A stretch of DNA of 64,000 nucleotides from an uncultured Mycobacteriaceae bacterium (GTDB lineage: Bacteria; Actinomycetota; Actinomycetes; Mycobacteriales; Mycobacteriaceae), in NCBI GenBank assembly GCA_902826815.1, contig CADEGF010000010.1:1-64000 (forward strand). The letters are read 5' to 3'. Position numbers and translations under genes: made by a program. Below, piece after piece: positions 23,733 to 38,227 of the stretch (position 1 is its first letter; each line of letters starts with the position of its first letter). The notes beneath the pieces were generated by a model. The model did not search any database. It was not told where the DNA came from and worked only from the letters and a program-made list of their open reading frames with translations.

Positions 23733-24503
23733 CTAGCGAAGATCGGGGACGGCCAGCTCCGCGGAAAGGCCGCCGATTGCGGCTGGGCGGCATGACTCGA
23801 TGAATCCGCGCAGCAGTCGCTTCGCGAGTTCGTCATGCTGCCAGTTCACCTCGGGGTGCCACTGCACGCTCGTCACGGCCTGATCGGTCGCTTCATACGC
23901 TTCGATCAGTCCGTCATCGGCGATGGCAGTGGCGACGAACCCTGGCGCAAGCTCACGAATACCCTGATGGTGCTGGCTGTTCACCGAAATCGGCCCGTGC
24001 TGGCCAAGCCACCCGGCAATCCGACTGCCAGGAACGACATCGACGCGGTGGCTGACGTCGATCAACTCCTCCTCGGTGCGTCGGTGGTCGACGTTCGACG
24101 GGTGATCTCGGTCGAGGTCGAGGTAGAGGGTCCCGCCGCGTGCGGCGTTGACCAGTTGTGCTCCTCGGCAGAACGCCATCGTCGGAATGCCTCGCCGCCA
24201 GGCTGACTCGAATGCCGTGATCTCGTTTCCCGCCCTTACCGTGTTGACGACCTTCACCAGGGGATCGCGCCGGTCTGCGCCGTACAGAGTGGGGTCGACG
24301 TCGCCGCCGCCACTGATCACAAGCCCATCGACATGCGCCAGGATCGACGACATGTGCTGCGGCACGCTGCCGCACTCGACGGCCAGCACAATCGCACCGA
24401 GTTGTTGCAGACCGTCGAATATGTTCTGCCAGTGAACGAATCGCCGTAGTTCTTGGCCGCTGATCGTGACCGCGATGACGGGCTTGGTCGGCACTGCATC
24501 CAT
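23733..24503 (-). CDS. Class I glutamine amidotransferase-like gamma-glutamyl hydrolase (PuuD type)
   Basis: A 256-residue peptidase C26 protein. The nucleophile is Cys112 (MAFCRGAQLVN), and the catalytic pair His216/Glu218 lies in VQWHPEVNW. GGGDVDPTLYG matches the gamma-glutamyl-GABA hydrolase group. PuuD releases glutamate from gamma-glutamylated amines after oxidation. Here it follows the FMO gene with 2 bp between, in the same locus as two glutamate-amine-ligase-like genes, which supports a gamma-glutamyl pathway. The ATG at 24503 was chosen because the longer frame overlaps the FMO gene. Confidence 0.87.
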   Translation of the reverse strand: MDAVPTKPVIAVTISGQELRRFVHWQNIFDGLQQLGAIVLAVECGSVPQHMSSILAHVDGLVISGGGDVDPTLYGADRRDPLVKVVNTVRAGNEITAFESAWRRGIPTMAFCRGAQLVNAARGGTLYLDLDRDHPSNVDHRRTEEELIDVSHRVDVVPGSRIAGWLGQHGPISVNSQHHQGIRELAPGFVATAIADDGLIEAYEATDQAVTSVQWHPEVNWQHDELAKRLLRGFIESCRPAAIGGLSAELAVPDLR

Positions 24504-24505
24504 CC

Positions 24506-25975
24506 TCACGTCAGTCGGACAGCGATGCGGCGCAACAGCTTGGTCAACACGATGTAGGGCGATGCCCCAAGGGGCCACTGCGACACGATCTTCCCTGTGC
24601 CTGCCCTGAAGTAACTGTTGGTGGTCTTCCACACCGTCTTGCCGAGTTGCGCCTGAAGCCAGTCGTTGTAGATGACGAACGCCGAGCGGCGCACGTCGAT
24701 GACCGTCTTCCCGGTCTTGGCCGCCCGAGATATCAGGCCTGCTGCGAAGCCGGCCTGGGCCTCATAGAAATGCACAAGCGGGGCCGCGTTTGTATTGGGC
24801 CCGTACATGATGAAGAAGTTCGGGAAGCCGGGCACCATCATGCCGAGGAACGCCTCGGGCTCGCCGTTCCACGCACCGTGCAGTTCAGCGCCGCCCTGCC
24901 CGTGCACCTGGTAGTTGCCCAAGTAGTTGGCGGCGTCGAAACCTGTTGCCATCACGATGATGTCGAAGTTGTGCTCGTCGCCGTTGGCGTCAACCGCGCC
25001 GGTGCGGGTCAGTCCCTTCACCCCGTGCGGCACCAGCGTCACACCCGGCTTGCACAGAGCTGCGTAATAGGTGTCGCTCAGCACCGTCCTGCGGGCCTCG
25101 AACGCGAACTTCGGCGTCACCAACTCGACGAGATCGGGCCGGGATTCCAGTTCGCGGCGCAGAAAGCCCAGTGCCAACGCACGGCGCCGCTTGTTGTCCC
25201 GACCGTCGGTGCGTGCGTGGCCCGAGCGGATCTGGCGACGGTCGTAGTCGACGAACAGTCGGTACCGCCGCCACGCATACGCGAGCGGGTTGCGATTGCG
25301 CCTGCGTTCGGCGGCGGTGAAGTCGCGACTGTCCTTCGGCACGATCCAGTTTGGTTCGAGCTGGAAGATAGTGACGTCGGAGGCGATCTTCGCCGCTTCC
25401 GAGACCACCTGTACCGCAGACGATCCGGTGCCGAGCACCGCCACCGACTTTCCGGTCATGTCTAGCCCATCGATCCACCGCGACGTGTGGCAGATGGCGC
25501 CTTCGAAGTCGTGGTCTTCGCGGGCGAAGGGCGGAAGCACCGGGATGTTGAGGAAGCCGACCGCACTGATGACCGCCGTGAATGCGCCGTGGTCGATTCC
25601 GGAATTCGTGGTCACCGTATAGGTGTGCTGGTTATCCGACCACGACACGTCCTGGACGGCTTCGTTGAACTGGATGCGGCGCGGCAGGTCCCACTTTTCG
25701 GCGACGCCTTCGAGATAGCCGAGCAACTCGCGCCAGTCGGCGTGGGTGCGAGTCCAGTCGTGGCGTTCGAAGGAGAACGAGTAGATGTGCGATTCGAGGT
25801 CCACCTCCGCCCCGGGATAGCGGTTGTGCCACCACGTTCCGCCGAGTGCTGACGCCTTTTCGAAGATGACGAAGTCCTCGATGCCCTTTCGCCGGAGCGC
25901 AACCGCCGCGGCGATGCCGCTGAAGCCGGCACCGATGATCGCCACGCGGGGCGGCCGGCGAGCGTGTGCGTCCAT
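24506..25975 (-). CDS. FAD-dependent monooxygenase, BVMO-like
   Basis: A 489-residue flavoprotein with two dinucleotide motifs (GAGFSG, residues 15-20, and GTGSSA, 182-187). The Baeyer-Villiger fingerprint F-x-G-x3-H-x3-W is matched by FEGAICHTSRW at 157-167. Enzymes of this class insert oxygen next to a carbonyl or oxidise N or S atoms with NADPH. The start has a strong AGGAGGAGA ribosome site. Its promoter region (25976-26061) holds one copy of the 24-nt motif shared with two other promoters in the locus. Substrate is unknown; amine N-oxygenation is as possible as ketone oxidation. Confidence 0.88.
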   Translation of the reverse strand: MDAHARRPPRVAIIGAGFSGIAAAVALRRKGIEDFVIFEKASALGGTWWHNRYPGAEVDLESHIYSFSFERHDWTRTHADWRELLGYLEGVAEKWDLPRRIQFNEAVQDVSWSDNQHTYTVTTNSGIDHGAFTAVISAVGFLNIPVLPPFAREDHDFEGAICHTSRWIDGLDMTGKSVAVLGTGSSAVQVVSEAAKIASDVTIFQLEPNWIVPKDSRDFTAAERRRNRNPLAYAWRRYRLFVDYDRRQIRSGHARTDGRDNKRRRALALGFLRRELESRPDLVELVTPKFAFEARRTVLSDTYYAALCKPGVTLVPHGVKGLTRTGAVDANGDEHNFDIIVMATGFDAANYLGNYQVHGQGGAELHGAWNGEPEAFLGMMVPGFPNFFIMYGPNTNAAPLVHFYEAQAGFAAGLISRAAKTGKTVIDVRRSAFVIYNDWLQAQLGKTVWKTTNSYFRAGTGKIVSQWPLGASPYIVLTKLLRRIAVRLT

Positions 25976-25994
25976 CGGTTGTCTCCTCCTAAAT

Positions 25995-26018
25995 ATCTAT
26001 AGGTTCAGTATTTAGACC
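25995..26018 (+). promoter_or_regulatory. Locus-wide 24-nt motif, copy A (FMO promoter)
   Basis: This copy starts ATCTATAGGTT and ends TATTTAGACC. It matches copies B (34327-34350) and C (37544-37567, minus strand) without gaps; 16 of 24 positions are identical in all three. It lies between the FMO ribosome site and a TTGACA-like -35 box (minus strand, 26030-26035), a position suited to repression. The GntR regulator at 34416 is the obvious candidate binder. Confidence 0.6.
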
Positions 26019-26061
26019 AATTATGGTGTTGTCAATACCAATCCCCCTCCAGGTGCCGTGA

Positions 26062-26790
26062 CTATTTGATTTGGGCGGTCCAGCCGCCGTCGACGATCAG
26101 ATCGGTAGCGGTGATGAAAGACGCTTGCTCGGAGAGCAGGAACGCAACGGCATTGGCGATGTCGTCAGGTAGGCCGAGCCTGCGCAGCGGCGTGCGCTGC
26201 TCCATATTGGCTCGCCTGGAGGGATCCTCCTCGTAGAGAGGCTCGATCATCGGCGTCAGAATCGCGCCAGGGCATACGGTGTTGACGCGGATACCTTCCG
26301 GACCCAGTTGCAGCGCAAGGGTTCTGCTGAGGGAGACGACCGCGGCCTTGCTGACCTGATAGGCGTCCAGCGGCGAGTCCATTCCGCGCACGCCCGCAGT
26401 GCTTGCGATATTGACGATGCTCTTGCCCGCCCCACGGCGAAGCATCGGCACAGCGGCCACGGTGAGGTGCCGCAGGGCGTGCAGGTTCACTCCGAGTGTG
26501 GTGTCCCAGACGGCTTCATCAGTGTCGAGGACCGACCCGTCACGGTCGAAGAGCGCAACGCCTGCGGCGTTGACCAAGTAGTCCAGCGACGCACCGTCGA
26601 AACCAGCAAGCAAGTCCGCCGGGTCATCGCCGAGAAGATCGAAGGCCACGTATCGGACGTCTGCGGGCAGCGCAGCCGGGCGGGGTTTGACGTCGGTCGC
26701 GAGCACCGCAACCCCGTCGGACGCCAGCCTGGTCGCGGCGGACAGCCCGATGCCGCCGCCTGCGCCAGTTACCAGCGCGGTGCGGGTCAC
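26062..26790 (-). CDS. Short-chain dehydrogenase/reductase
   Basis: A 242-residue classical SDR with TGAGGGIG at residues 8-15, NAAG near 74-77, and the catalytic set Ser130, Tyr144, Lys148 (YQVSK). The GTG start at 26790 overlaps the hydrolase stop by GTGA. It is the last gene of the eight-gene operon beginning at 34265. A secondary alcohol or keto-acyl intermediate is the expected substrate. The Asp after the second strand (ATDVK) points to NAD rather than NADP. Confidence 0.87.
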   Translation of the reverse strand: MTRTALVTGAGGGIGLSAATRLASDGVAVLATDVKPRPAALPADVRYVAFDLLGDDPADLLAGFDGASLDYLVNAAGVALFDRDGSVLDTDEAVWDTTLGVNLHALRHLTVAAVPMLRRGAGKSIVNIASTAGVRGMDSPLDAYQVSKAAVVSLSRTLALQLGPEGIRVNTVCPGAILTPMIEPLYEEDPSRRANMEQRTPLRRLGLPDDIANAVAFLLSEQASFITATDLIVDGGWTAQIK

Positions 26791-27725
26791 CGGTGAACCG
26801 CACCAAGGGCTTGAGCCAGTCGCTCGCCTGCGAACGTCATCGCACCGGTCGCCGACGGGAACACCTCGTCGAGTCCGAAGAAGCCGTGAACCATCCCAGC
26901 GGTGAGGTGGCTGCGCACCGGCACTCCTGCCGCCTCGAGGGCGGCCACGTAGCGCTCCCCCTGCGGACGGATCGGATCGCATTCGGCGAGGACGACGGTG
27001 GCCTCCGGCAGACCGGTCAGGTCGGCATCGAGGATGTTGACGCGCGGGTCGCTCATGTCAGCGGGGCTCGCCAGGTAATTGTCCTGGTGCCACTGCAATT
27101 CGTCGCGTTCGAGCATGACGCCGTCGTATTCGGGATTCATCCCGCGCTCGAGATCGGTCGTGGTGACGGGATAGACCAGCAGCTGATGGCGCAAAACGGG
27201 CCCGCCTGCGTCGCGCGCGTACAACGCGGCCGCACCGGCCAGGTTGCCGCCCGCGCTGTCGCCCGCGACGGCGATATTGCTGTGGTCGATGTCGAGCCCG
27301 GAAGAAGGGTCGGCCGCCCAGAGGAGCGCGTCGATCGCATCGTTGACCGCAGTCGGGAAGCGGAAATCGGGTCCGCGGCGGTAGCCGACCGAAAGCACTG
27401 CGCTGCCAGATGCATTGGCCAGCAGCCGGGTGGTGACATCGTGGGAATCGACGCTGCCCAACAGGAAACCGCCGCCGTGGAAGTACACCGTCAACGGCAG
27501 TACCGCGCTCTCTTCTGCGGGTAGATACAGCCGTCCTGGGATGGTCCCGCCGTCGCGAGTGGGGATGGAGATGTCGATGACGCGGTGCACCGGCGGTTTC
27601 TCCAACTCGGCGAAGGTGTTCTCGAAGTTCTCGCGTGCTGTCGCGACGGGCAGCAGATGCGCGTTGGGACGTCCCGACTTCTTGGCGTCGTCGAGCATCT
27701 TCTGTGCGATCGGATCGATGGGCAT
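26787..27725 (-). CDS. Alpha/beta hydrolase, hormone-sensitive-lipase family
   Basis: A 312-residue HSL-type esterase with the oxyanion motif HGGG at residues 83-86, the nucleophile Ser157 in GDSAGG, an acid in ECDPIRPQG and a histidine in GMVHGFFG. It is cytosolic. In this locus it could cleave an ester or lactone made by the FMO, a common BVMO-esterase pairing, or an amide. The gene lies 33 bp after a glutamine-synthetase-like gene and is coupled by GTGA to the following SDR. Confidence 0.88.
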   Translation of the reverse strand: MPIDPIAQKMLDDAKKSGRPNAHLLPVATARENFENTFAELEKPPVHRVIDISIPTRDGGTIPGRLYLPAEESAVLPLTVYFHGGGFLLGSVDSHDVTTRLLANASGSAVLSVGYRRGPDFRFPTAVNDAIDALLWAADPSSGLDIDHSNIAVAGDSAGGNLAGAAALYARDAGGPVLRHQLLVYPVTTTDLERGMNPEYDGVMLERDELQWHQDNYLASPADMSDPRVNILDADLTGLPEATVVLAECDPIRPQGERYVAALEAAGVPVRSHLTAGMVHGFFGLDEVFPSATGAMTFAGERLAQALGAVHR

Positions 27726-27758
27726 ACAGGCTCCTCTGCAGTTGGTGGCGTGGCGCGG

Positions 27759-29141
27759 TCAGACGCGTTCGTAGTAGCGGCGGGTTTCCCAGTCGGTGAC
27801 GGAGTGCGAGTCGAAGGCGACGAGTTCGGCTTGCGCCGAGCCCAGTAGGTGGCCGAAGACCTCGTCGCCGAACGCCGCGCGCAGCATTTTGGCTTCTTCG
27901 AAGCGGCGAAGCGCTTCGTGCATCGAGGTCGGCACGCAGCTGATGTCGTCGCCCGTCCAGGCGTTGCCGGCGAAGATCTCGGGTGCAGGCAGTTCCCGGT
28001 CGATGCCGTCGAGGCCCGCTGCGATGGTGGCCGAGTAGGCGTAGTACGGGTTGACGTCCGCACCGGGGATCCGGTTCTCGACGCGGTAGGCCGGTCCGCG
28101 GCCGACAAGCCGGAACGCACAGGAGCGATTGTCGTCACCCAGCGCCAGAGCCGTACCCGCGAACTGGTCGGGCTGGAACCGCTTGTAGGAGTTGATCGTC
28201 GGCGCAAACATCATGGTGATGTCGGCGGCGTGGCCGAGTTGCCCTGCGACGAACGAGCCGAACTTCTCCGACATACCGCCGTCGGCCCCCTGTGCCCAGC
28301 ACAGGCTGGTGTCCTCGTCGGCCGACCACATGCTCACGTGCAGATGACACGACGACCCCACCTCGTCGACCTTGGGTTTGGCCATGAACGTCACGGTGAG
28401 GTCGGCTGCGTTGGCGAGCTGTTTGACGCCGTACTTGAACAGCACGTGGCGATCGGCCATTTCCAGGGTGTCGCAGTAGTCGAGGGTGACTTCCTGTTGG
28501 CCAAGGCCCCATTCGGGTTTGGACGACTCGATCGGTACCCCGAACTCCGGCATCTGGTTGCGAATGCGCTCGATGAACCAGTCGTCCCTGCCGGCTTGGA
28601 CCATCTGGTAGTCGGAGCGGTAGTCCGACAGCATCTTCAGGTTCTGGTAACCGAGGTCCCATGCCTCGCGCGGCGGGGTGGCCGCAAGGAAGAACTCCAG
28701 CTCGGAAGCGAACTTGAACCGCAGGCCGTGGGCAGCGGCACGGTCGATCTGGTGGCGCAGGATGCTGCGCGGCGCAACCGAAAGCAGCGCGTCGGAATCG
28801 TATTCGTAGGCGTCGCAGATCACCAGTGCGACGTGCGGCTCCCACGGCACCCGGCGAAGCGTCGCCAGATCCGGCACCAACCGGATGTCGGCCCACCCGT
28901 TTGCCGCATTCGAGACCGGGAGGTCGAGAGGGTTCATTTCCAGGTCGACCGCGAAAACAAAACTGCTGGCGTTGATTCCGCTGCCCGAAAGCCCCAGCGA
29001 GCGGAACGCAGGGATGGTGAGCCGCTTGCCGACGAGCCTGCCGTAGGGGTCAGGGGTGGCGCAGACGACTGTGTTGAGCTGTCCTGCGTCGACCAATTCG
29101 TCGAATTGATCGATGGTCAGGCGGTCCGATGCTGTGCTCAT
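27759..29141 (-). CDS. Glutamine synthetase-like gamma-glutamyl-amine ligase 1
   Basis: A 460-residue GS-fold ligase. The beta-grasp N-terminal domain is followed by the catalytic barrel with FASELEFFL, GLGQQEVTL, SCHLHVS, INSYKRF and RVENRIPGADVNPYYA, so the metal and ATP residues look intact. Members of this group (PuuA, GlnA3-like, IpuC) join glutamate to a primary amine. ATG 29141 overlaps the stop of the second GS-like gene by ATGA. With the PuuD-like hydrolase and the APC permease it suggests a Puu-type amine route; the amine is unknown. Confidence 0.88.
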   Translation of the reverse strand: MSTASDRLTIDQFDELVDAGQLNTVVCATPDPYGRLVGKRLTIPAFRSLGLSGSGINASSFVFAVDLEMNPLDLPVSNAANGWADIRLVPDLATLRRVPWEPHVALVICDAYEYDSDALLSVAPRSILRHQIDRAAAHGLRFKFASELEFFLAATPPREAWDLGYQNLKMLSDYRSDYQMVQAGRDDWFIERIRNQMPEFGVPIESSKPEWGLGQQEVTLDYCDTLEMADRHVLFKYGVKQLANAADLTVTFMAKPKVDEVGSSCHLHVSMWSADEDTSLCWAQGADGGMSEKFGSFVAGQLGHAADITMMFAPTINSYKRFQPDQFAGTALALGDDNRSCAFRLVGRGPAYRVENRIPGADVNPYYAYSATIAAGLDGIDRELPAPEIFAGNAWTGDDISCVPTSMHEALRRFEEAKMLRAAFGDEVFGHLLGSAQAELVAFDSHSVTDWETRRYYERV

Positions 29142-30421
29142 TGGTGCTCCAGGTGACGGGTGAGTTCCCAGCTGGTGATCGTTTGGCGCAGCCACTGGTC
29201 GAAGCGCTTGGCCTCGGCACGACGGGTCGCGGCGTACGACGCGCAGAACGGCTTTCCGAGCAGTTCGGGTAGCCATGTCGACTCTTCGAAAGCCGTTACA
29301 GCGCCGTGCAAATCGGCAGGCACGCTACCCACGTGCTCGCGAGGCGCCGACAGCGCGACCTGTTCGCGCAGCCCGTGCAATCCGGCTGCGAGGAGCGCGG
29401 CGGACACCAGATACGGGCTGGCATCCGCGCCGGGGCGGCGGTGTTCCACACGCGCGCCGGGAAGGTCCTCGAGGATGGTTCTGCAGGCGGTGCTGCGGTC
29501 GTCGTTACCCCATGACGCGGCGGCGGGGGTGAACATCTCGGGGTCGATGCGCTTGTAGGAATTGACGTACGGATTGAGCATGGCTGTGGTGTCGGCCATC
29601 CCGACGAGCAGTCCCGCCAGGTAGTGCGCGCCTTCCGGGGACAGCTGTCCCGGCCGCTCGGAAAAGATGTTGGTGCCTGCGCGGCTCAGGCTCGAGTGCA
29701 CGTGTCCCCCCGCACCGGACCTGTCGGCGAACGGCTTGGCCATGAAGCTGGCGTGCAGGCCCTGTTCGGCACACAGGTCGCGCAGGTACTGGCGCGCACG
29801 CACGGCGTTATCGGTGGCCTTCATCGCGGGTGCGGGCGCGAGGGTGAACTCGAAGAACCCGGGCCCCAGTTCAGAGTGGAACATCTCCACGGTGATGCCG
29901 ACAGACTCCATGCGATTGATGAAGTCCGTTGTCAGCGTGTGTACTTGGGCAGAACGTGAAACGCTGTAGGCGTTCTCGGTGGTTCCGAACGGGCGGCGGT
30001 CGCCTCCCGTCTGGCCGGGGCTGTCGTGGAACAACCACAGTTCGTACTCGAAGCCGAGCACGGGCTGCAGATCAAGGTCGGCGTAGCCGTCGAGTACCCG
30101 TTGCAGCGCGTACCGCGGCGACATCTCGACGGGTTTGCCGTCGGTATCGAACAGGTCGGCGATGACGGCATCGGTGCCGGGACGCCAGCTCAACTCGACG
30201 CGGGTGCCCTCGTCCGGGACGAGTCGAGCGTCGGGATAGCCGTTTTCGGCGCTGCTGAACTGGGTGTCGGTGACCTCGTCGGTGACTGACAGCCCGTAGA
30301 GGATGGTGCACATCGCCAGGCTGGTCGAGCCGTGAGTCTTGCTGGTGCGCACCAGCTTGCCGCGGATACCGAGGTCGTAGTCGGGCACCTCGAGTTGCGT
30401 CATTGCAACGGCGTCAGGCAT
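29138..30421 (-). CDS. Glutamine synthetase-like gamma-glutamyl-amine ligase 2
   Basis: A 427-residue GS-fold paralogue, clearly diverged from its neighbour. FEYELWLF, SELGPGFFEF, GGHVHSS, VNSYKRID and RVEHRRPGADASPY replace the usual motifs, and the second metal motif reads GPGFFEF rather than GQQEV. Full activity or a changed amine specificity are both possible, as is a heteromer with ligase 1. ATG 30421 was chosen for its AAAGGAG site; it overlaps the upstream gene by 8 bp. Paired GS-like genes of unequal conservation occur in amine-catabolic loci. Confidence 0.85.
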   Translation of the reverse strand: MPDAVAMTQLEVPDYDLGIRGKLVRTSKTHGSTSLAMCTILYGLSVTDEVTDTQFSSAENGYPDARLVPDEGTRVELSWRPGTDAVIADLFDTDGKPVEMSPRYALQRVLDGYADLDLQPVLGFEYELWLFHDSPGQTGGDRRPFGTTENAYSVSRSAQVHTLTTDFINRMESVGITVEMFHSELGPGFFEFTLAPAPAMKATDNAVRARQYLRDLCAEQGLHASFMAKPFADRSGAGGHVHSSLSRAGTNIFSERPGQLSPEGAHYLAGLLVGMADTTAMLNPYVNSYKRIDPEMFTPAAASWGNDDRSTACRTILEDLPGARVEHRRPGADASPYLVSAALLAAGLHGLREQVALSAPREHVGSVPADLHGAVTAFEESTWLPELLGKPFCASYAATRRAEAKRFDQWLRQTITSWELTRHLEHQ

Positions 30422-31490
30422 CGCCCGCTCCTTTCGCAGTGCCTCTTGCTGGACGGCTGGCGGGATCGCGCCCGACCCTGCGGTAGACGTCGTCGGGGAT
30501 ATCCGCCGGGTCGCGGTACACCCACCAGGTACAGGAAGTCTGCGCCGCATCCGGCGTCCATGTCGGCGCGTCGATGACGCGGGTGGGAAACCCCAGCCGG
30601 TCGATCGGCATGACTTCGTTGAGTTGGCAGCAGTGCACGCAGTACGAGCAGATTCCCACGGTGTTCCAGGCCCAGTCGTGCGGCTCGGTGGTGACAGCGA
30701 AGCCGTAGGGTGCGCCCGCCCGCGGTGCGCCGTCGCTGATGCGCGCATCCAGTGATCGACCGCCGGAACCGCACGGCGCGAAGCGGAACCCCACCCGGGT
30801 GGGCTCCTCGATGAGCTCGATATCGCCTTGCCGCCCCGTGCCGGTGAGGTGGGCGTGAAAGCCGTCGACGATAGCGATCATCAACTGGTGCGCCGATACC
30901 GACCATGGTTGGCTCTCAAGGGAATAGCGGCGCGCGTGTACCTCGTACCAGTCGTCCATCAGGAAGTCCCACAGCGCGCCGAGGTGTTCCTCCCCCACCA
31001 GCTTCACCGCGACGTCGATCAGGCCGGAGACCCGGTCAACGGCGCGATCATGCATGGCCTGCCAGACCGCGCGGGCCTGCTCGACGGCGTCGGTCGCCCC
31101 TGCCTCGCGCCGCCTGCAGGCCGCTGCGGCGGCCGCGACCGCGGAGGTGAACTGCGGCCATTCAGCTTCGATCCCCACCATTGCCTGGTCTCCGACGAGT
31201 GCCCCGAGACGGTCGACTGCGGCGGCGATGTCTGCTTCGGCCACCCCGTGTCCGCGTATCCAGTCCGCCGTGGCCCTCGGCCACCGGTCGTAGACATCGC
31301 GCAATTCCTCTGCCTCGAGGACGCCCACCTCGACCAGATCCGCTGCCGCGTCGGGGTCGCCGTCGGCCAGCCGTTCGACGGCCGCGCGGAAGGTGCCCTT
31401 TGCCAACTCCTGCCACGTGCCCGTGCGAGCCGTGCGACCGAGGGACGGCTCGTATCCGACAGGGGCCCGGTCGAGGTCGTTGGCGCTCAC
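30414..31490 (-). CDS. Uncharacterised cysteine-rich protein
   Basis: A 358-residue protein I do not recognise. The first 200 residues are helical and acidic. The C-terminal third holds a conserved-looking PCGSGGRS and a compact cluster ICSYCVHCC, followed by SCTWWVYRDP, which could bind a metal ion or Fe-S centre. There is no signal peptide or membrane segment. GTG 31490 overlaps the SDR stop by GTGA and its own end overlaps GS-like gene 2 by 8 bp, so it is co-translated with the pathway. An enzymatic or cofactor-carrying role is likely but unproven. Confidence 0.6.
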   Translation of the reverse strand: MSANDLDRAPVGYEPSLGRTARTGTWQELAKGTFRAAVERLADGDPDAAADLVEVGVLEAEELRDVYDRWPRATADWIRGHGVAEADIAAAVDRLGALVGDQAMVGIEAEWPQFTSAVAAAAAACRRREAGATDAVEQARAVWQAMHDRAVDRVSGLIDVAVKLVGEEHLGALWDFLMDDWYEVHARRYSLESQPWSVSAHQLMIAIVDGFHAHLTGTGRQGDIELIEEPTRVGFRFAPCGSGGRSLDARISDGAPRAGAPYGFAVTTEPHDWAWNTVGICSYCVHCCQLNEVMPIDRLGFPTRVIDAPTWTPDAAQTSCTWWVYRDPADIPDDVYRRVGRDPASRPARGTAKGAGDA

Positions 31491-32263
31491 GACAGCCCGA
31501 ATCCGCCGTCGATGCACAGGTCCGTGCCCGTGATGTAGCCGGCTTGATCACTGAGCAGAAAGGCTACGGCCGAGGCGATTTCGCCGGCTTCGGCGAACCG
31601 TCCAACCGGGATCCGCGGAGCAAGTGTGGATGACAGCGTCGAGGTGTCGCCATGCGGTGCGGCCATGGCGGTCGCGACGAAGCCGGGCGAAACGCTGTTG
31701 ACGCGAACCCCGTCGGCTGCCAATGCTCGCGCGGCGCTCTTCGTCAGCATCCGCAACCCCGCCTTCGACGCCGCGTACTGCGGGGTCGGATCGGGATCGG
31801 TGAGCGCGACGACCCGCGACGCCTCGATGGAGGCGACGTTCACGACCGCCGCCGTTGCCGCGCTGCGAAGGGCAGGCCCGAGGGCATCGATCAGGTTGTA
31901 GGCACCGACGAGATTGACCTCAAGACAGCGCATCCAGGTGTCGCGGTCGACGCCGGAGAAGCCAGTGTTGTCGAGAATTCCCGCACAGTTCACCAGATAG
32001 GAGATGTCGTCGACGGCGACTTCTGCGGCACCCAGCCGCTGTACCAGGTCACGGTCGCGCACGTCGGCGCTCACGCAGGCCTGCAGGTCGGCGCCGAAGT
32101 CAGGATCGACGTCGGGCGTGTGGATGTCGAGTCGGATGGTGCGGATCCCAGCCGACATGAGGGTCCGAGCGATCGCCGCGCCGATTCCCGATGCGGCACC
32201 GGTGACCACGGCGGCTCCGCCGCTGAAGGTCAGCGGCAGCACTTTCGTCGTGGCAGCCGTCAT
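31487..32263 (-). CDS. Short-chain dehydrogenase/reductase
   Basis: A 258-residue classical SDR: TGAASGIG near residues 21-28, LVNCAGIL, catalytic serine in ASIEASR, and Tyr/Lys in YAASK. LDIHTP after strand two suggests NAD use. The insertion VVALTDPDPTPQ just before the catalytic tyrosine is longer than in the other SDRs here and may shape the substrate pocket. ATG 32263 overlaps the DUF1116 stop by ATGA; the reading frame extends upstream only antisense-like through that gene. Substrate unknown. Confidence 0.86.
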   Translation of the reverse strand: MTAATTKVLPLTFSGGAAVVTGAASGIGAAIARTLMSAGIRTIRLDIHTPDVDPDFGADLQACVSADVRDRDLVQRLGAAEVAVDDISYLVNCAGILDNTGFSGVDRDTWMRCLEVNLVGAYNLIDALGPALRSAATAAVVNVASIEASRVVALTDPDPTPQYAASKAGLRMLTKSAARALAADGVRVNSVSPGFVATAMAAPHGDTSTLSSTLAPRIPVGRFAEAGEIASAVAFLLSDQAGYITGTDLCIDGGFGLS

Positions 32264-33537
32264 CGCGGCCCGTACCGGCGTTCGTGTTCGGCCATCGCGT
32301 CGACGAAGCACTCCCGCGGCGCCCGGATCACACCCGCGCCGATCTGGCCGCCGTCGCGACCCGCCAATCCGACGTCCATCACGGGCAGGATCTGAGTCTG
32401 CAGCACCTTGCGGGCATCGATTCCCGTCGGAGTGCCGCGGAAGCCGAACAGCGGGATCCGGTAGGTGTCGTTCTCGCCGTGGGTGATGGCGTACATCTCT
32501 CGGTTGCGTTCGATCATCACCTCCGGGGAACCGCCCTGGTACTCCTGCAGGGGAAGCGCGCATGCCTGGGCGAAGCCGCCGAGACCGATGGTTTCCGTGA
32601 TCGGCGATTCGCCACCCATCCAGGTGATCTCGTCTTCGGTGTGACCATCGAACAGCTTGCCCTGATGTATCGGCGGCGGCCCTTCGAACCAAGTATCGCC
32701 CAGCCCCGCCACCTTGATGGCGAATCCGCGGCAGGAGAACGCCATCGCCGAGACCAGCGTGGAGCCGGGCACCACCATCGCATCAGCAGACGCCTTGGCG
32801 GCCGCCATCGACAGCCGCAGGAAGAAGTAGTCGTTCTCCGCCAGGTGCAACATGGTTTCGCGGACGCCGGCCACCCGCTCGTCGACCATGTCAAGGACCG
32901 CGGGCAGGATCTCCCTGTTGAACAGGATCGAGGCCGCCGCGTTGCGGCTGTGCACCTCGTCGCCCATCCGCAGCGCGCGGGCAATCAGCGGTTTGAGTGC
33001 GATCCCGCCACGGCGCCGGATCGCCTCCCCGACCACGGGCGCCAGCACGTTGTTGACGTGCAGCAGTCGCTCGTGCACGCCCTCGTCGTAACAGCCGTAG
33101 TTCAGCCGCCGCGGTTCCTTGCCCTCGTAGAAGTTGCAGAACCCGCGGTTGCCACCTGCGCGGTTCTCTACGACGAAGACCGGCATCGACGCGGTGTAGA
33201 TGCCTGCGAGCGAGCCGACCGCGGCGTAGTCGTGGCAACCGCCGACTTCGATCTCGCCGGTCTCGAATCGGGCGATCGCCTCGTCGCGGTCGGCGGCGAG
33301 GCCCTCGAACAGGGCGCCGCCGATCAGCGCCTCACGCTGCCCACCGATGTAGTCCTGCCAGGCCATCGGCGCACCCGACGTCAGGACCAGGTTGTCCCGA
33401 TAGCCCGGGAGGACGTCGCGGGCCTGGCGCACGTCCACCACCCATGGGTCGGCGTCGATGAGCCTGGCGAACGAGTCGGCGTTCGCGTCCTCGACCGAGG
33501 TGGTTCCATGCGCCGTCGTGCTGTGCTCGGTGCTCAC
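32260..33537 (-). CDS. DUF1116 protein (AllG/YlbE-like)
   Basis: A 425-residue DUF1116 protein. Visible marks are EVGGCHDYAAVGSLAGIYTASMPVFVVEN, RLNYGCYDEGVHERL and HSRNAAASILFNREI. In E. coli the related AllG (YlbE) works with AllF (FdrA) and AllH to make oxamate carbamoyltransferase in allantoin use. Neither partner is encoded in this window. It may bind acyl phosphates, carbamoyl groups or CoA in another context. GTG 33537 overlaps the SDR stop by GTGA; the gene is second in an eight-gene operon, which ties it to nitrogen-compound breakdown. Confidence 0.8.
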   Translation of the reverse strand: MSTEHSTTAHGTTSVEDANADSFARLIDADPWVVDVRQARDVLPGYRDNLVLTSGAPMAWQDYIGGQREALIGGALFEGLAADRDEAIARFETGEIEVGGCHDYAAVGSLAGIYTASMPVFVVENRAGGNRGFCNFYEGKEPRRLNYGCYDEGVHERLLHVNNVLAPVVGEAIRRRGGIALKPLIARALRMGDEVHSRNAAASILFNREILPAVLDMVDERVAGVRETMLHLAENDYFFLRLSMAAAKASADAMVVPGSTLVSAMAFSCRGFAIKVAGLGDTWFEGPPPIHQGKLFDGHTEDEITWMGGESPITETIGLGGFAQACALPLQEYQGGSPEVMIERNREMYAITHGENDTYRIPLFGFRGTPTGIDARKVLQTQILPVMDVGLAGRDGGQIGAGVIRAPRECFVDAMAEHERRYGPR

Positions 33538-34265
33538 CACGCGACGACACCGCCGTCGACCAGCAGCGTCTGCGCGGTGATGAACGATGCGCGCGGCGAT
33601 AGCAGGAACTCGACTGCTTCTGCGACCTCCTCTGGCTCGCCGATGCGCTTCAACATCGCGTGGCTGGCACTCATCTCCTCTCCTCCGGACACGCGGGCCA
33701 TCGACGGACTCATCGGGGCGCGGATGACGCCGGGTGCGACATTGTTGACCCGGATGCCGCGCGGTGCGAGCTCTTCTGCCAGGTAGCGGGTGTAGGCGGC
33801 GATGCCTGCCTTGGTCGCTCCGTACACCGACGCGCCACGAAACCTGCCGAAGTGGCCGGTGAGGCTGCCGATGTTGACGATCGCACTGCCGTCAGTGAGC
33901 AGAGGGGCGACCGCATCGGTGACCCGGGCCATGCCTGCGATGTTCACCTGGAACATCAGCTCCAGCTTCGCCTCGTCGAGTTCGCCGAGGAATGAATCGC
34001 GAAGGATGCCAGCGCAATTGACCAAGCCGTACAGTGTCTCGCCGTCTGCGCCGACCGTCGCGACCGCCGAGGAGACGCTTTCGCGGTCGCTGACGTCCAT
34101 CACGACCGTCGACGCGCCCCCTAGGCCCGCCTTGTCGAGATCGAGGGCGTCGACCGCAGGCTTGAGGTCGGCGACCACCGGTACGTAGGAACTCTGCAGG
34201 AGGCGACGGGAGATCGCCTGCCCGATGGTGCCGGCCCCGCCGGTCACGATCACTTTGTTTCCCAA
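33534..34265 (-). CDS. Short-chain dehydrogenase/reductase, first gene of the eight-gene operon
   Basis: A 243-residue classical SDR: TGGAGTIG at residues 8-15, LVNCAGIL, Ser134, Tyr148 and Lys152 (YGATK), and a VVADLKP strand-two end that suggests NAD. It begins the tightly coupled operon running to 26062. The gap to the divergent gntR gene contains motif copy B and a GTGA-N6-TCAC Crp-like dyad. Expression is therefore probably induced by the locus regulator and may respond to carbon status. Confidence 0.87.
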   Translation of the reverse strand: MGNKVIVTGGAGTIGQAISRRLLQSSYVPVVADLKPAVDALDLDKAGLGGASTVVMDVSDRESVSSAVATVGADGETLYGLVNCAGILRDSFLGELDEAKLELMFQVNIAGMARVTDAVAPLLTDGSAIVNIGSLTGHFGRFRGASVYGATKAGIAAYTRYLAEELAPRGIRVNNVAPGVIRAPMSPSMARVSGGEEMSASHAMLKRIGEPEEVAEAVEFLLSPRASFITAQTLLVDGGVVAW

Positions 34266-34286
34266 CGTGTTAGCCCTTCTGCACAG

Positions 34287-34300
34287 GTGACACGGATCAC
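34287..34300. promoter_or_regulatory. Crp-like dyad GTGA-N6-TCAC
   Basis: GTGA (34287-34290) and TCAC (34297-34300) flank six bases, matching the core of mycobacterial Crp sites (TGTGA-N6-TCACA), though the outer bases do not match. It lies 21 bp upstream of the SDR start at 34265. Chance occurrence is possible. Confidence 0.35.
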
Positions 34301-34326
34301 GGACAAACCCAGTCTCATCGACAAAG

Positions 34327-34350
34327 ATCTATTGGTCAAGTTTTTAGGTC
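34327..34350 (+). promoter_or_regulatory. Locus-wide 24-nt motif, copy B (gntR/SDR divergent promoter)
   Basis: This copy starts ATCTATTGGTC and ends TTTTTAGGTC, aligning without gaps with copies A and C. It lies 61 bp upstream of the eight-gene operon and 65 bp upstream of gntR at 34416, so one bound protein could act on both directions. The orientation differs from copy C relative to the controlled gene, which fits an operator better than a promoter box. Confidence 0.6.
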
Positions 34351-34415
34351 TTTAAAAGCAAACCGTCTTTGTGCACTGCTCGTGCGGTAACCTGCTAGCA
34401 AAGGAAGGGGATCTC

Positions 34416-35156
34416 ATGCCGGCGGTGGAAGCGACCCAGGCATTGAGTCCGGTGCGCCAGATTCCCGCCCACGAGTTGGTCGTCGACCAGATGCGTAGGG
34501 CCTTGGAGCTCGGCCAGTTCCGGCCAGGCGATCGACTGCCCACCGAGCGTGAACTGGCCGAGATGCTCGATGTATCCCGCACCACCGTGCGCGCCGCCGT
34601 CGCAGTACTGGAAAGGGAAGGCCTGATTGCGGTGCGCCGCGGGCGCGGCGGCGGCTTCACCGTGCAGGCGCCGCCGATCGACCCCGCGGAGATGCGGCGC
34701 GAGATGCGACGCAACAAGCTGGCCATCCGGGACGCGTTCGACTACCGGATCATCGTCGAGACCGGGGCGACGCACCTCGCCGCGCAACGGCGCCGCAACG
34801 CCGACCTCTCCGCACTGCACAAACTGCTCAACGGGATGTCCGACGCCCTCGACGTCGCGATGTCCGAACAGTCCGCGCAGCACACCACCGAGTTTCAGAC
34901 GCTGGACAGCGCGTTTCACATGGGTATCGCGCAGGCTGCGCAGAACGATCGCCTTCTCGACGCGGTCGCCGACGCCCGACGGCGGATGTGGCTCCCGGTC
35001 GGGGCGATCTTCGGTCGCTTGGAACCCAACGCCAACGACTTTCACGAATCGATCCTCGAAGCCATCGAGAATCGCGAGCCCGAATTGGCGGCCAAGCGCA
35101 TGGAAGCCCATATCAACGACACCCGATGCACCATCGAAGCCTGGCTCAAGCGCTGA
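34416..35156 (+). CDS. GntR/FCD-family regulator of the amine locus
   Basis: A 246-residue regulator: winged helix (about residues 15-85, LPTERELAEMLDVSRTTVRAAVAVLEREG) and an FCD domain with TLDSAFHMGIAQAA and a late FHESILEAIENRE. The ATG at 34416 is preferred because AAGGAAGGGG lies at 34401-34410. It sits at the centre of the three promoters that carry the 24-nt motif and is divergent from the main operon. Local repression relieved by a pathway acid is the likely mode. Confidence 0.9.
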   Translation: MPAVEATQALSPVRQIPAHELVVDQMRRALELGQFRPGDRLPTERELAEMLDVSRTTVRAAVAVLEREGLIAVRRGRGGGFTVQAPPIDPAEMRREMRRNKLAIRDAFDYRIIVETGATHLAAQRRRNADLSALHKLLNGMSDALDVAMSEQSAQHTTEFQTLDSAFHMGIAQAAQNDRLLDAVADARRRMWLPVGAIFGRLEPNANDFHESILEAIENREPELAAKRMEAHINDTRCTIEAWLKR

Positions 35157-35171
35157 GCCTGACTTCGCCTC

Positions 35172-35942
35172 CTACAGAACGTTTTCCGGTATTTCCGGCA
35201 GTGTCTGACCGCCGTCGACGACCAGCGTCTGCCCTGTCACGAAGCCGGCCTCCTCGCTCGCGAAGTACATCACCGCTGCCGCGATGTCCGCCGGTGAGCC
35301 CAGCCGGTGCTGCGGGATACAGGCCCGCATCCTGGCGATGGCGTCGTCGCCCAACCCGTCAAGCCCCTCGGTGGCGATGCTGCCTGGAAGCACAGCGTTG
35401 ATGGTGACCTCGTCGACGGCGAGTTCGATCGCTGCGCTGCGAACGAACCCCAGCTGGGCGGCCTTGCTCGCACCGTAGTGGCTCAGCCCCGGATAGCCGG
35501 TCACGGGCCCGGTGATCGAGGAGGTGACGACGACTCGGCCGCGGCCGGACTCCTTCAACGCCGCACGGCAGGCCTGGACCGAGAAGATGGTGCCTGCGAC
35601 GTTGGTCGCCATGATCGCGGTGACGTCGTCGACATTCATCTCATCGAGGGTGCGCTCTGGATAGATTCCGGCGTTGGCGCACAACACATCCAGCCCGCCC
35701 AGCCGATCGGCGGCCTCGTCGGCCATCTGCTGACACGACTGTGGGTCAGCGACGTCGGCGACGACGGTGTGGACTCGCTGTCCCGTCGGGTCGAGGCGTT
35801 CCGCCGCGTCGGACAGGGCGTCCGAGCCGCGGCCGCTGATCGCGACCGCCGCCCCAGCGCGCAGGAACTCCTCGGCGATACCGAACCCGATGCCCCGGCT
35901 TCCGCCGGTGACCAGAACCCGCGCGCGCGACCAGTCGGTCAC
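35172..35942 (-). CDS. FabG-like short-chain dehydrogenase/reductase
   Basis: A 256-residue SDR: TGGSRGIG near residues 12-19, CANAGIYPE, serine in VTSSITG, and YGASK. AISGRGSD after strand two has an arginine, which suggests NADP preference, unlike the other SDRs of the locus. The GTG start overlaps the permease stop by GTGA, making a two-gene operon under motif copy C. It converges on gntR with 15 bp between stops. Confidence 0.87.
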   Translation of the reverse strand: MTDWSRARVLVTGGSRGIGFGIAEEFLRAGAAVAISGRGSDALSDAAERLDPTGQRVHTVVADVADPQSCQQMADEAADRLGGLDVLCANAGIYPERTLDEMNVDDVTAIMATNVAGTIFSVQACRAALKESGRGRVVVTSSITGPVTGYPGLSHYGASKAAQLGFVRSAAIELAVDEVTINAVLPGSIATEGLDGLGDDAIARMRACIPQHRLGSPADIAAAVMYFASEEAGFVTGQTLVVDGGQTLPEIPENVL

Positions 35943-37477
35943 GCCTTGTCCGCAGGCAACAGGTCCTCGGGCCGGTCATCGAACACCGTGCTACCGATGC
36001 GGGCATACCGCTGCGGGCTCGTCTTCTTCCAGATCGCAGCCACCGCAAGCGATCCGAACAGCAGGAACGCAACGATCCACGGAATGGCCTTGAAGAACAA
36101 CGTCTCCGACGCAGCGCCTGCAGCCGCGGTCATATTCGACGCCATCAGATAGATCACGAAAAGCATTCCGAACCCGCCGATCAGAGGCGCCACAAGGGTG
36201 CGCCACCAGTTCGCGGTCTCGGGATGCTCCTTCTTGACATGGAAGTACACGATCGTCGAGATCGACGACATCGTCTGCACGATCAACAGGCACAGCGTCG
36301 CCAGAATCGCCACAAGGACGAAGAGCACAGCGTAGGGATCGCTGCCCGACACCGCGCAGATCACCAGCAGCACACCGGCGAACGCGCTCTGGGTCAGCGA
36401 CGCGATCCACGGTGAGGCGTGCCGATGGTGCGCTCCACCCAACCGGTGCCACAGCAGCCTGTCACGACCGAACGCGAACAGGTAGCGCGCCGCGGAGTTG
36501 TGAATCGCCAGCGCGCACGCGAACGATCCACCGAGCACCAGCCACTCGAACACGGTGACCGCCCACGGGCCGAGATAATCCCTGGCGGGCGAATACAGCA
36601 GCTCGAACGGGGTGGCACTGGCCGCCAGTTCGACGGACTTCTCCGGCCCGTTGCCGACGATGACGCCCCATGACACGAACGTGTAGAACACCCCGATGCC
36701 GATCACCGCGATCATGGTCGCCCGCGGCACGATCTTCTTGGGATCCTTGGATTCCTCGCCGTAGATGGCGGTGGACTCGAAGCCCACCCACGACCAGAAC
36801 GCCATGAGTAGCCCGAGCCCGATGACACCGCCTGCCACCCCGTTGGTGCTCAACGCGCTGGCCGGGTTCAGCGATGCGAAGCTCATCCCCTCCGGGTGGT
36901 GAAGCAGCGATGCGACCGCAAGGAGCGCAAGGATCGCGATCTCGCAGACCAGCACGACACCAAGCACTTTGGCGGCCACCGAGATGTCGAAGTGGGACAG
37001 CGCTGCGATCACCACCAGGCAGACCGCCGCGTACACCTCCCACGGCAGGTCGATCCCCAATTGCTCGCCGAACGCCTGTTTGGAGAAGGCCGCGAAGATC
37101 CCGATCAGGCCCGCCTCCATGGTCATGTAGGTGAACATGGTCATCACACCCGCCGCCAGGCCGGGGATCTTCGACCATCCGCGGGAGACGAACGTGTAGA
37201 ACGCGCCCGCGGCGGTGATATGGCGCGCCAGCGCCACGAAGCCGACGCTGAACACCGTGAGTACCACCGTGGCGATGATGAAGCCCGCAGGGGCACCGAG
37301 GCCGTTGCCGAAGCCCACCGCCACCGGCAGGTTACCGGTCATCGCCGTGATCGGCGCCGAGAACGCCACCACCATGAAGACCACGCCGACGAGGCCGATC
37401 GCTCCACGTCGAAGTGTCGTGCGACCCGCGTCGGAGTCTGCCGCAGCCGGCGCCGCGGGTGCTGAATTCACGGCCAT
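35939..37477 (-). CDS. APC superfamily amino acid/amine permease
   Basis: A 512-residue transporter with about twelve membrane segments and the APC start GAIGLVGVVFMVVAFSAPITAM, which carries the helix-1 unwound region. FWSWVGFESTAIYGEE in helix 6 is typical of the amino acid/polyamine group. The C-terminus is hydrophilic. It probably brings in the amine or amino acid that the GS-like ligases use, as PuuP does for putrescine. Its upstream region holds motif copy C, and GGAAGG precedes the ATG. Confidence 0.88.
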   Translation of the reverse strand: MAVNSAPAAPAAADSDAGRTTLRRGAIGLVGVVFMVVAFSAPITAMTGNLPVAVGFGNGLGAPAGFIIATVVLTVFSVGFVALARHITAAGAFYTFVSRGWSKIPGLAAGVMTMFTYMTMEAGLIGIFAAFSKQAFGEQLGIDLPWEVYAAVCLVVIAALSHFDISVAAKVLGVVLVCEIAILALLAVASLLHHPEGMSFASLNPASALSTNGVAGGVIGLGLLMAFWSWVGFESTAIYGEESKDPKKIVPRATMIAVIGIGVFYTFVSWGVIVGNGPEKSVELAASATPFELLYSPARDYLGPWAVTVFEWLVLGGSFACALAIHNSAARYLFAFGRDRLLWHRLGGAHHRHASPWIASLTQSAFAGVLLVICAVSGSDPYAVLFVLVAILATLCLLIVQTMSSISTIVYFHVKKEHPETANWWRTLVAPLIGGFGMLFVIYLMASNMTAAAGAASETLFFKAIPWIVAFLLFGSLAVAAIWKKTSPQRYARIGSTVFDDRPEDLLPADKA

Positions 37478-37543
37478 GGAGGCCTTCCTTTCCTGTGGGC
37501 AACGTGATGTGCGTTACTCGTGACGGAAGCGTAAGACCCTAAA

Positions 37544-37567
37544 GAACTAAAAACAAGACCTATAGAC
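37544..37567 (-). promoter_or_regulatory. Locus-wide 24-nt motif, copy C (permease promoter)
   Basis: Read on the minus strand this copy starts GTCTATAGGTC and ends TTTTTAGTTC, 66 bp upstream of the permease ATG. It aligns without gaps with copies A and B. A further AAGACC at 37533-37538 may be an extra half-site. Confidence 0.6.
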
Positions 37568-37621
37568 CAAATAGGAACGGACGTGACACATTGTTAACGG
37601 GCGAAAGCACCATGCCCGCGG

Positions 37622-38227
37622 CTAAGTCGCCCCCGTCGATCTACCTGTGACGATCCGAAAGGCTCGATTCAGCCTGTTGCGCATGTATTCCGGCGACTCG
37701 TCGTCGACTTCTGGGTCGAAGTGGCCGTGCCTGTCCAACACATCCAGGTAAGTCGCCGCGAGCACCGCAGACCACAGTTTCAGCCCCTGCTGGACGCGGG
37801 TGTCTTCCGGGGGCGCCTCGAAGCGATCGGCGAGCACGGTCGTGAGCATCTCGACACGCTGGGCGCCCACCTTCTTCTGTAGGTCGGCCGACGAGATGAT
37901 CGCCTTGCTCATGTTGCGCATGCGTTCTGCGGAAACCGGACCAGTGCCGACGATGATGTCGGCGACGACTTCTGAATGTGCCGCCATCAGCGCTTCGACT
38001 ATCGGCGTCTGCGGGTCGACTTCGGCCAATGCGTTCGCAACGATGACCAGCATGTCCCGTGCGACACCGAGCACGATCGCATCCTTGGTTCCGAGGACGC
38101 TCTCGACCTCGTCGGCCGGAATGCCGGTGGCCTCGGCGATCTGCGCCATCGACGTGCCGTCAAACCCTCGCTCCGCCAACAGGGCCAACGCGATATCGGC
38201 GGCTTCGCGACCGGCCTGGTCGTCCAT
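37622..38227 (-). CDS. TetR-like transcriptional regulator
   Basis: A 201-residue TetR-like protein. The helix-turn-helix (FDGTSMAQIAEATGIPADEVESVL, about residues 22-45) lacks the usual aromatic FxxK end, so it is a diverged member. The remainder is helical with a charged C-terminus. It lies upstream of the permease on the same strand (144 bp gap with motif C) and is divergent from the orphan binding-protein gene at 38342. Either neighbour could be its target. Confidence 0.75.
   Translation of the reverse strand: MDDQAGREAADIALALLAERGFDGTSMAQIAEATGIPADEVESVLGTKDAIVLGVARDMLVIVANALAEVDPQTPIVEALMAAHSEVVADIIVGTGPVSAERMRNMSKAIISSADLQKKVGAQRVEMLTTVLADRFEAPPEDTRVQQGLKLWSAVLAATYLDVLDRHGHFDPEVDDESPEYMRNRLNRAFRIVTGRSTGAT

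Follow-up and report, generated by a model that had tools for sequence, protein, structure and literature searches.

A probable local GntR regulon with an unusual operator in an uncultured Mycobacteriaceae bacterium

The window, a stretch of 64,000 nucleotides (contig CADEGF010000010.1 of assembly GCA_902826815.1, positions 1 to 64,000) from an uncultured Mycobacteriaceae bacterium, contains an FMO-like gene, an eight-gene operon, a divergent gene for a GntR-type regulator and a permease operon. A 24-nucleotide motif occurs in the FMO, gntR/eight-gene and permease promoters. The initial annotation, made from the sequence alone, took this motif to define a probable regulon with the central GntR protein as the likely binder, and the analysis supports this local interpretation with a redrawn operator. 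Most probably the motif serves as operator for an FCD-type GntR whose gene lies at 34416-35156; this protein would repress the FMO, eight-gene and permease operons and would be released by a ligand.

Three copies of the motif in one gene cluster

The copies lie exactly where they had been placed, at 25995-26018 (+; ATCTATAGGTTCAGTATTTAGACC), 34327-34350 (+; ATCTATTGGTCAAGTTTTTAGGTC) and 37544-37567 (-; GTCTATAGGTCTTGTTTTTAGTTC). They align without gaps and are invariant at 16 of 24 positions, TCTAT, GGT and TTTAG among these, as first described. At up to three mismatches the window contains these three copies and no more, and no copy arose in 100 dinucleotide-preserving shuffles. Across the 6,871,345 bases (141 contigs) of the genome, the three copies match with 0 mismatches and two further matches have 3 mismatches; the reversed pattern gave seven matches in the same genome, and the two weaker matches are not above this control. 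The three copies are the only good ones in 6.87 Mb. Own-genome scans supported no targets outside the cluster, and the pattern TTGGTCYAWWGGNC, at up to one mismatch, gave 12 matches vs 34 for its control, copy 3 being the sole exact match.

The conserved block exceeds the 24 nucleotides and spans approximately motif positions -3 to 28; the positions of its half-sites (H1, H2 and H3) are listed in Table 1. Copies 1 and 2 are in reverse orientation relative to the FMO gene and the eight-gene operon, and copy 3 is forward relative to the permease gene. Copy 1 is situated between the FMO start (25975) and the stop of the last gene of the eight-gene operon (26062), so that the FMO promoter around it would be an internal one.

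Table 1. Features of the cluster, with window coordinates.
Feature	Coordinates	Strand	Remarks
Peptidase C26 (gamma-glutamyl hydrolase-like) gene, after FMO	23733..24632	-	true start probably within the frame
FMO-like gene	24506..25975	-	
Operator copy 1, FMO promoter	25991..26021	+	H1 25991-25999; H2 25999-26007; H3 (inverted) 26013-26021
FMO promoter-like element, TTGACA-17-AATACT	26007..26035	-	-10 within copy 1; found by consensus scan
Eight-gene operon	26062..34265	-	gene order in text
Eight-gene promoter-like element, TTGACC-17-GAGACT	34311..34339	-	-35 within copy 2; by eye, missed by scan
Operator copy 2, divergent gntR/eight-gene region	34323..34353	+	H1 34323-34331; H2 34331-34339; H3 (inverted) 34345-34353
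TAACCT, possible gntR -10	34388..34393	+	by eye; similar hexamer recurs in relatives
GntR/FCD regulator gene	34416..35156	+	product is the predicted binder
APC permease gene (35939-37477), then SDR gene (35172-35942)	35172..37477	-	
Permease promoter-like element, TTGTTT-17-TACGCT	37528..37556	-	-35 within copy 3; by eye, missed by scan
Operator copy 3, permease promoter	37541..37571	-	H1 37563-37571; H2 37555-37563; H3 (inverted) 37541-37549
TetR gene	37622-38227		stop 54 bp from copy 3

Conservation of the sites with the cluster

A motif scan of the genome and of relatives had been proposed as a check on the regulon, and its results in the own genome, in 248 genomes of the genus (own included) and in clusters of other genera are all consistent with it. 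The genus sample was scanned with a 20-nucleotide core at up to two mismatches. Matches are present in 84 of the 248 genomes, those outside the clusters not being tallied against a control. Thirteen genomes besides the own have matches grouped as in the window, with the same cluster and gene order; three copies are listed for 12 of these, and two for G069, whose weaker FMO site is seen in L099. The clusters of G118 and G040 are split over contigs, the G069 stretch examined for cluster genes ends before FMO, and G098, G118 and G140 have one further 2-mismatch match each outside the cluster. GntR proteins at least 84% identical occur in 14 of the 248 genomes, which are exactly the 13 cluster genomes and the own one, and AllG proteins at least 84% identical in 13, the AllG gene of G118 being interrupted by a contig end. 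Clustered sites, GntR and AllG thus mark the same 14 genomes, and this co-occurrence points to GntR as the binder.

Matching sites are also found in clusters of Rhodococcus, Gordonia and Nocardioides. An AllG search of genome contigs gave 43 loci, and upstream regions were compared in 55 loci (the window, L036-L050, L054, L063, 34 of the 43 AllG loci and L128-L130), nine AllG loci on the same contigs as earlier ones having been dropped. A site was counted when the core had at most 3 mismatches of 18 and lay within 300 bp upstream; the counts cover loci with a GntR match and split clusters counted by hand (L046, L049, L074, L081). By this measure the permease has a site in 33 of 36 loci, the first operon gene in 36 of 40 and FMO in 29 of 37; for other genes of the cluster, 5 of 324 upstream regions contain one. 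In Gordonia (L091, L093) the permease is inverted and its site moves along with it. In L081 the FMO site is exact, and a GntR of 43% identity lies approximately 1.8 kb beyond the examined stretch; in L097, whose GntR (38% identity) falls below the score limit, the core has 0 mismatches at FMO and 8 at the first gene.

A matrix built from 40 window and mycobacterial sites was applied to three held-out loci on Rhodococcus plasmids (L128-L130). All nine expected sites were found (9/9; scores 38.2-47.9), nothing else scored above 8, and 20 shuffles reached at most 5.2. The same matrix found nothing above 8 in L094 and L104, where the GntRs are 44-46% identical. Among loci without a GntR match the permease site was found in 0 of 4, and eight AllG loci lacking GntR (L098, L100, L101, L103, L106-L109) had no core site at up to three mismatches. 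One of them, L100, scored 19.9 with the matrix vs up to 18.2 in 20 shuffles of this A+T-richer locus, and a separate motif scan gave two 3-mismatch matches there.

Several minor observations were also made. A GntR relative in L116 (82% identical) has one internal stop, and the regulator gene appears to be decaying in this one species. Paralogous clusters with a 58% identical GntR and diverged operators were found in L063 and L079, and both cluster types occur in G118 and in M. frederiksbergense. The pattern TCTATCGGTCCTGTCTTTC[GT] recurs away from the cluster in 9 of the 248 genomes (e.g., L064-L068); an open-frame check of five of the nine gave no clear assignment.

Operator architecture, candidate regulator and rival explanations

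When 41 sites from 14 genomes are aligned, conservation continues beyond the 24 nucleotides at either end, and G8 and G9 are invariant in 41 of 41. The block can be read as three WWWGGTCNA-like half-sites: H1 covers positions -3 to 5, H2 repeats it directly at 5 to 13 with a period of 8, and H3, which is inverted, covers 19 to 27. Half-site analysis was based on 82 non-redundant sites with at most two mismatches; the collection skipped clusters without GntR (L098, L100, L101, L103, L106, L111), and two shifted secondary matches were dropped. The direct period of 8 scores 16.19 (99th percentile of 2000 shuffles 14.54, maximum 20.50), and the best inverted axis is that of H1-H3 at position 12 (10.81 vs a shuffle 95th percentile of 10.70). 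The H1 offset test is biased, each site having been oriented to favour H1 at -8. Distant clusters retain the H2-H3 pair, WWWGGTCTA-N5-TAGACCWWW, with 1 mismatch of 18 in L095, 2 in L094 and L112 (GntR identity 44-45%) and 0 in L097 (38%); this core scan covered loci other than L102, L105 and L111. As H2-H3 remains in the distant clusters, it is preferred as the dimer pair, and H1 would be an extra box. The core is GGTCTA-N5-TAGACC, i.e., GT-N11-AC or GGTC-N9-GACC.

The regulator is a member of the GntR family, FadR (FCD) subfamily, with an N-terminal DNA-binding domain (PF00392; 67.0 bits, cut-off 27) and a C-terminal FCD domain (PF07729; 66.7 bits, cut-off 24.3), membership being defined by domains and not by operator spacing. 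UTRA, the effector domain of HutC-type regulators, is absent from the Pfam matches listed, and the protein is not classed as HutC-type. Glu44, Arg45, Arg55 and Arg59 are invariant in 26 of 26 GntR relatives, and Arg45 and Arg55 are in register with Arg38 and Arg48 of NagR (phmmer match of 15-156 to 8-149). Together with the invariant G8 and G9 these aligned arginines support a reading of GGTC by GntR. The initial choice of GntR as the likely binder is strengthened by co-occurrence, by gene position and by these base-reading arginines. In many related soil bacteria this switch is retained together with these genes, and its reader is very likely the regulator whose gene lies between the three gene sets.

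All three copies overlap promoter-like elements (Table 1). The TTGACA of the FMO element is kept in all 13 aligned FMO sites of the genus alignment, and like elements at the eight-gene and permease promoters are kept in relatives. In the 41-site alignment the middle letters of the operator are nearly constant for any one promoter and differ from one promoter to the next (CAA at gntR, CTT at the permease), because -35 and -10 elements overlap there; the complement of GGTCAA, for instance, is TTGACC, the eight-gene -35. The operator thus likely overlaps the core promoters of FMO, the eight-gene operon and the permease, as expected of a repressor. GntR dimers are proposed to bind the GGTC-type half-sites over the three core promoters and so to keep RNA polymerase off these operons, until a small molecule from the pathway would release the protein and uptake and breakdown would be switched on together.

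Several findings weigh against this interpretation. The H2-H3 axis (position 16) scores 4.19, below the shuffle median of best axes (6.70), and its support comes from distant loci. Eleven loci in 11 of the 248 genus genomes (L051-L053, L055-L062) have GntRs 76-82% identical with the same recognition-helix arginines, and within approximately 20 kb they show no cluster genes and no core site at up to four mismatches; G140, one of these genomes, has the cluster elsewhere, and in L052 the cluster-free gntR gene stands between coaE and uvrB. A consensus promoter scan of 25900-37800 gave one match (FMO) with 1.1 expected by chance, so that the case for the promoters rests on conservation and not on the scan. 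The loci of the upstream comparison are related, and most of them helped to define the pattern. Sites were missed there at the permease in L088, L092 and L095, at the first gene in L088, L092, L096 and L104, and at FMO in L054, L074, L079, L085, L094, L095, L096 and L112; despite this miss, the FMO site of L085 fits the mycobacterial matrix well (51.4).

Other explanations of the motif differ in what would bind it and to what effect. Binding by GntR as an activator, or as activator and repressor depending on the promoter, is unlikely and is the strongest of these alternatives. In its favour, copies 2 and 3 overlap the -35, a place also bound by some activators, and the -35 hexamers TTGACC and TTGTTT are imperfect; copy 1, however, covers the -10 of the FMO promoter-like element. 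FCD regulators with core-promoter sites repress, as exemplified by HypR, which binds at its own -10 (PMC6608401). The product of the TetR gene is a very improbable binder, although its gene, 54 bp upstream of copy 3, is the only other regulator gene next to any copy, and a long symmetric site such as that formed by H1 and H3 about position 12, the best inverted axis, would suit a TetR protein. No TetR match was found at E 1e-3 in 63 loci besides the window, while the sites are kept, and 32 of 34 non-duplicate permease loci extend at least 800 bp upstream of the permease; TetR was rejected on the lack of a match in other loci.

Recognition of the motif by an alternative sigma factor, as a promoter element, is equally improbable. 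The motif is A+T-rich and is located on promoters, but its orientation to the genes is inconsistent, and the -10 or -35 elements that it overlaps are separate from it and differently placed; this candidate was rejected on these two grounds. That the motif is a chance likeness or a dispersed repeat is hardly credible, as nothing in favour of it was found, none of 100 window shuffles gave a copy, good copies number three in 6.87 Mb, and the same promoters carry sites across genera. Structured RNA was also rejected: the window gave no match to Rfam at gathering score, and copies 2 and 3 are at the -35, upstream of the predicted transcript.

Operators of known GntR regulators resemble the proposed GntR site in part. 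According to the reports on DasR and NagR (GntR, HutC subfamily), their dre sites are A(G/C)TGGTCTAGACCA(G/C)T, and Arg38 and Arg48 of NagR read two consecutive guanines (PMC4398421, PMC4333415). The inverted GGTCTA half-sites are shared, and these two arginines align by register with Arg45 and Arg55; dre has GGTC-N2-GACC, whereas here the arrangement is GGTC-N9-GACC with a third half-site, and the effector domain is FCD and not of the HutC type. In Escherichia coli, the NanR operator is described as (GGTATA)3 with all repeats direct, and three operons are under one operator type (PMC8012715). NanR is likewise an FCD-type GntR with repeated GGT-type half-sites and three operons under one operator type, and its Glu58, Arg59, Arg69 and Arg73 match Glu44, Arg45, Arg55 and Arg59 in the printed alignment. 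Unlike in NanR, two direct and one inverted GGTC-type half-sites are present here and other genes would be controlled; NanR is the best NCBIfam match, but at 83.3 bits vs a cut-off of 260 the regulator is not NanR by curated score. FadR-subfamily operators usually have 3 or 2 nucleotides between GT and AC, and extra half-sites 7-12 nucleotides away are described in GntR family operators (PMC4494728). The GntR helix-turn-helix, the FCD domain and the placing of an operator next to the regulator gene, in the divergent region, agree with this subfamily, whereas the 11 nucleotides between GT and AC depart from its norm, as do NanR and BioR. As the arrangement fits neither dre, NanR nor the FadR norm, it is an unusual operator variant for a known regulator family.

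Two side observations concern the regions around the operators. In relatives, a direct-repeat element (TTTGGTCYAWWGGNC-like) is located between the operator and gntR; its strict pattern is present in 22 of 33 loci, the window not included. The corresponding window region, 34354-34387, is without it, and by eye approximately 50 bp were apparently lost near 34357/34358; autoregulation of gntR may differ in the window. In many relatives the permease operator is preceded, at a distance of 68-122 bp, by another core-like site (identified by eye; several of these have 4 mismatches). In the window the corresponding region (37572-37700) has nothing better than 6 mismatches besides copy 3, and the TetR gene is found there instead.

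Cluster genes and the suggested pathway

The eight-gene operon encodes, in order, an SDR, AllG/DUF1116, an SDR, an unassigned protein, two glutamine-synthetase-like ligases, an alpha/beta hydrolase and an SDR. The unassigned protein (30414-31517) has no Pfam or NCBIfam match and is kept in most clusters. On two annotated Rhodococcus plasmids, glsA and acs (glutaminase and acetate-CoA ligase) adjoin the cluster. Read from family names, the genes, glsA and acs included, suggest a pathway that takes up an amine-like compound, gamma-glutamylates and oxidizes it, and proceeds through a Baeyer-Villiger-like step and ester hydrolysis to the release of acetate, and the three gene sets probably serve the use of such a compound.

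The local GntR regulon with its unusual operator is well supported. A wider reading, tentative and somewhat less probable than its opposite when taken as a whole, is that an FCD-type GntR clade of several actinobacterial genera reads a wide dre-like GGTC-N4-GGTC-N9-GACC and governs an undescribed amine pathway, which would join gamma-glutamyl ligases, an AllG-type protein and a Baeyer-Villiger-like step. In that case the effector domain, and not the DNA-reading helix, would determine the spacing, with one dimer spanning 9 bp or two dimers sharing three half-sites. A literature search, with subscription journals mostly outside its coverage, found no description of this regulon. The analysis gives a predicted binding site and a 12-gene target set (possibly plus gntR) to a regulator clade seen in Mycobacterium, Rhodococcus, Gordonia and Nocardioides relatives. 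Three operons are tied into one candidate pathway, the substrate can be sought through induction, and the operator offers a test of half-site spacing by FCD regulators.

Relatives of AllG occur outside this regulon as well. The own genome (G000; contigs C13, C21, C52) has four further ones, 36-49% identical, and the paralogue regions L125-L127 contain no core site at up to four mismatches. The clusters L128-L130 are themselves borne by large plasmids of Rhodococcus, and L130 has an IS21-type transposase gene nearby; Rhodococcus opacus 1CP carries the cluster on its plasmid pR1CP1. Of 164 matched plasmid records, 161 have AllG/DUF1116 relatives with less than 60% identity, mostly from Escherichia, Klebsiella and Citrobacter.

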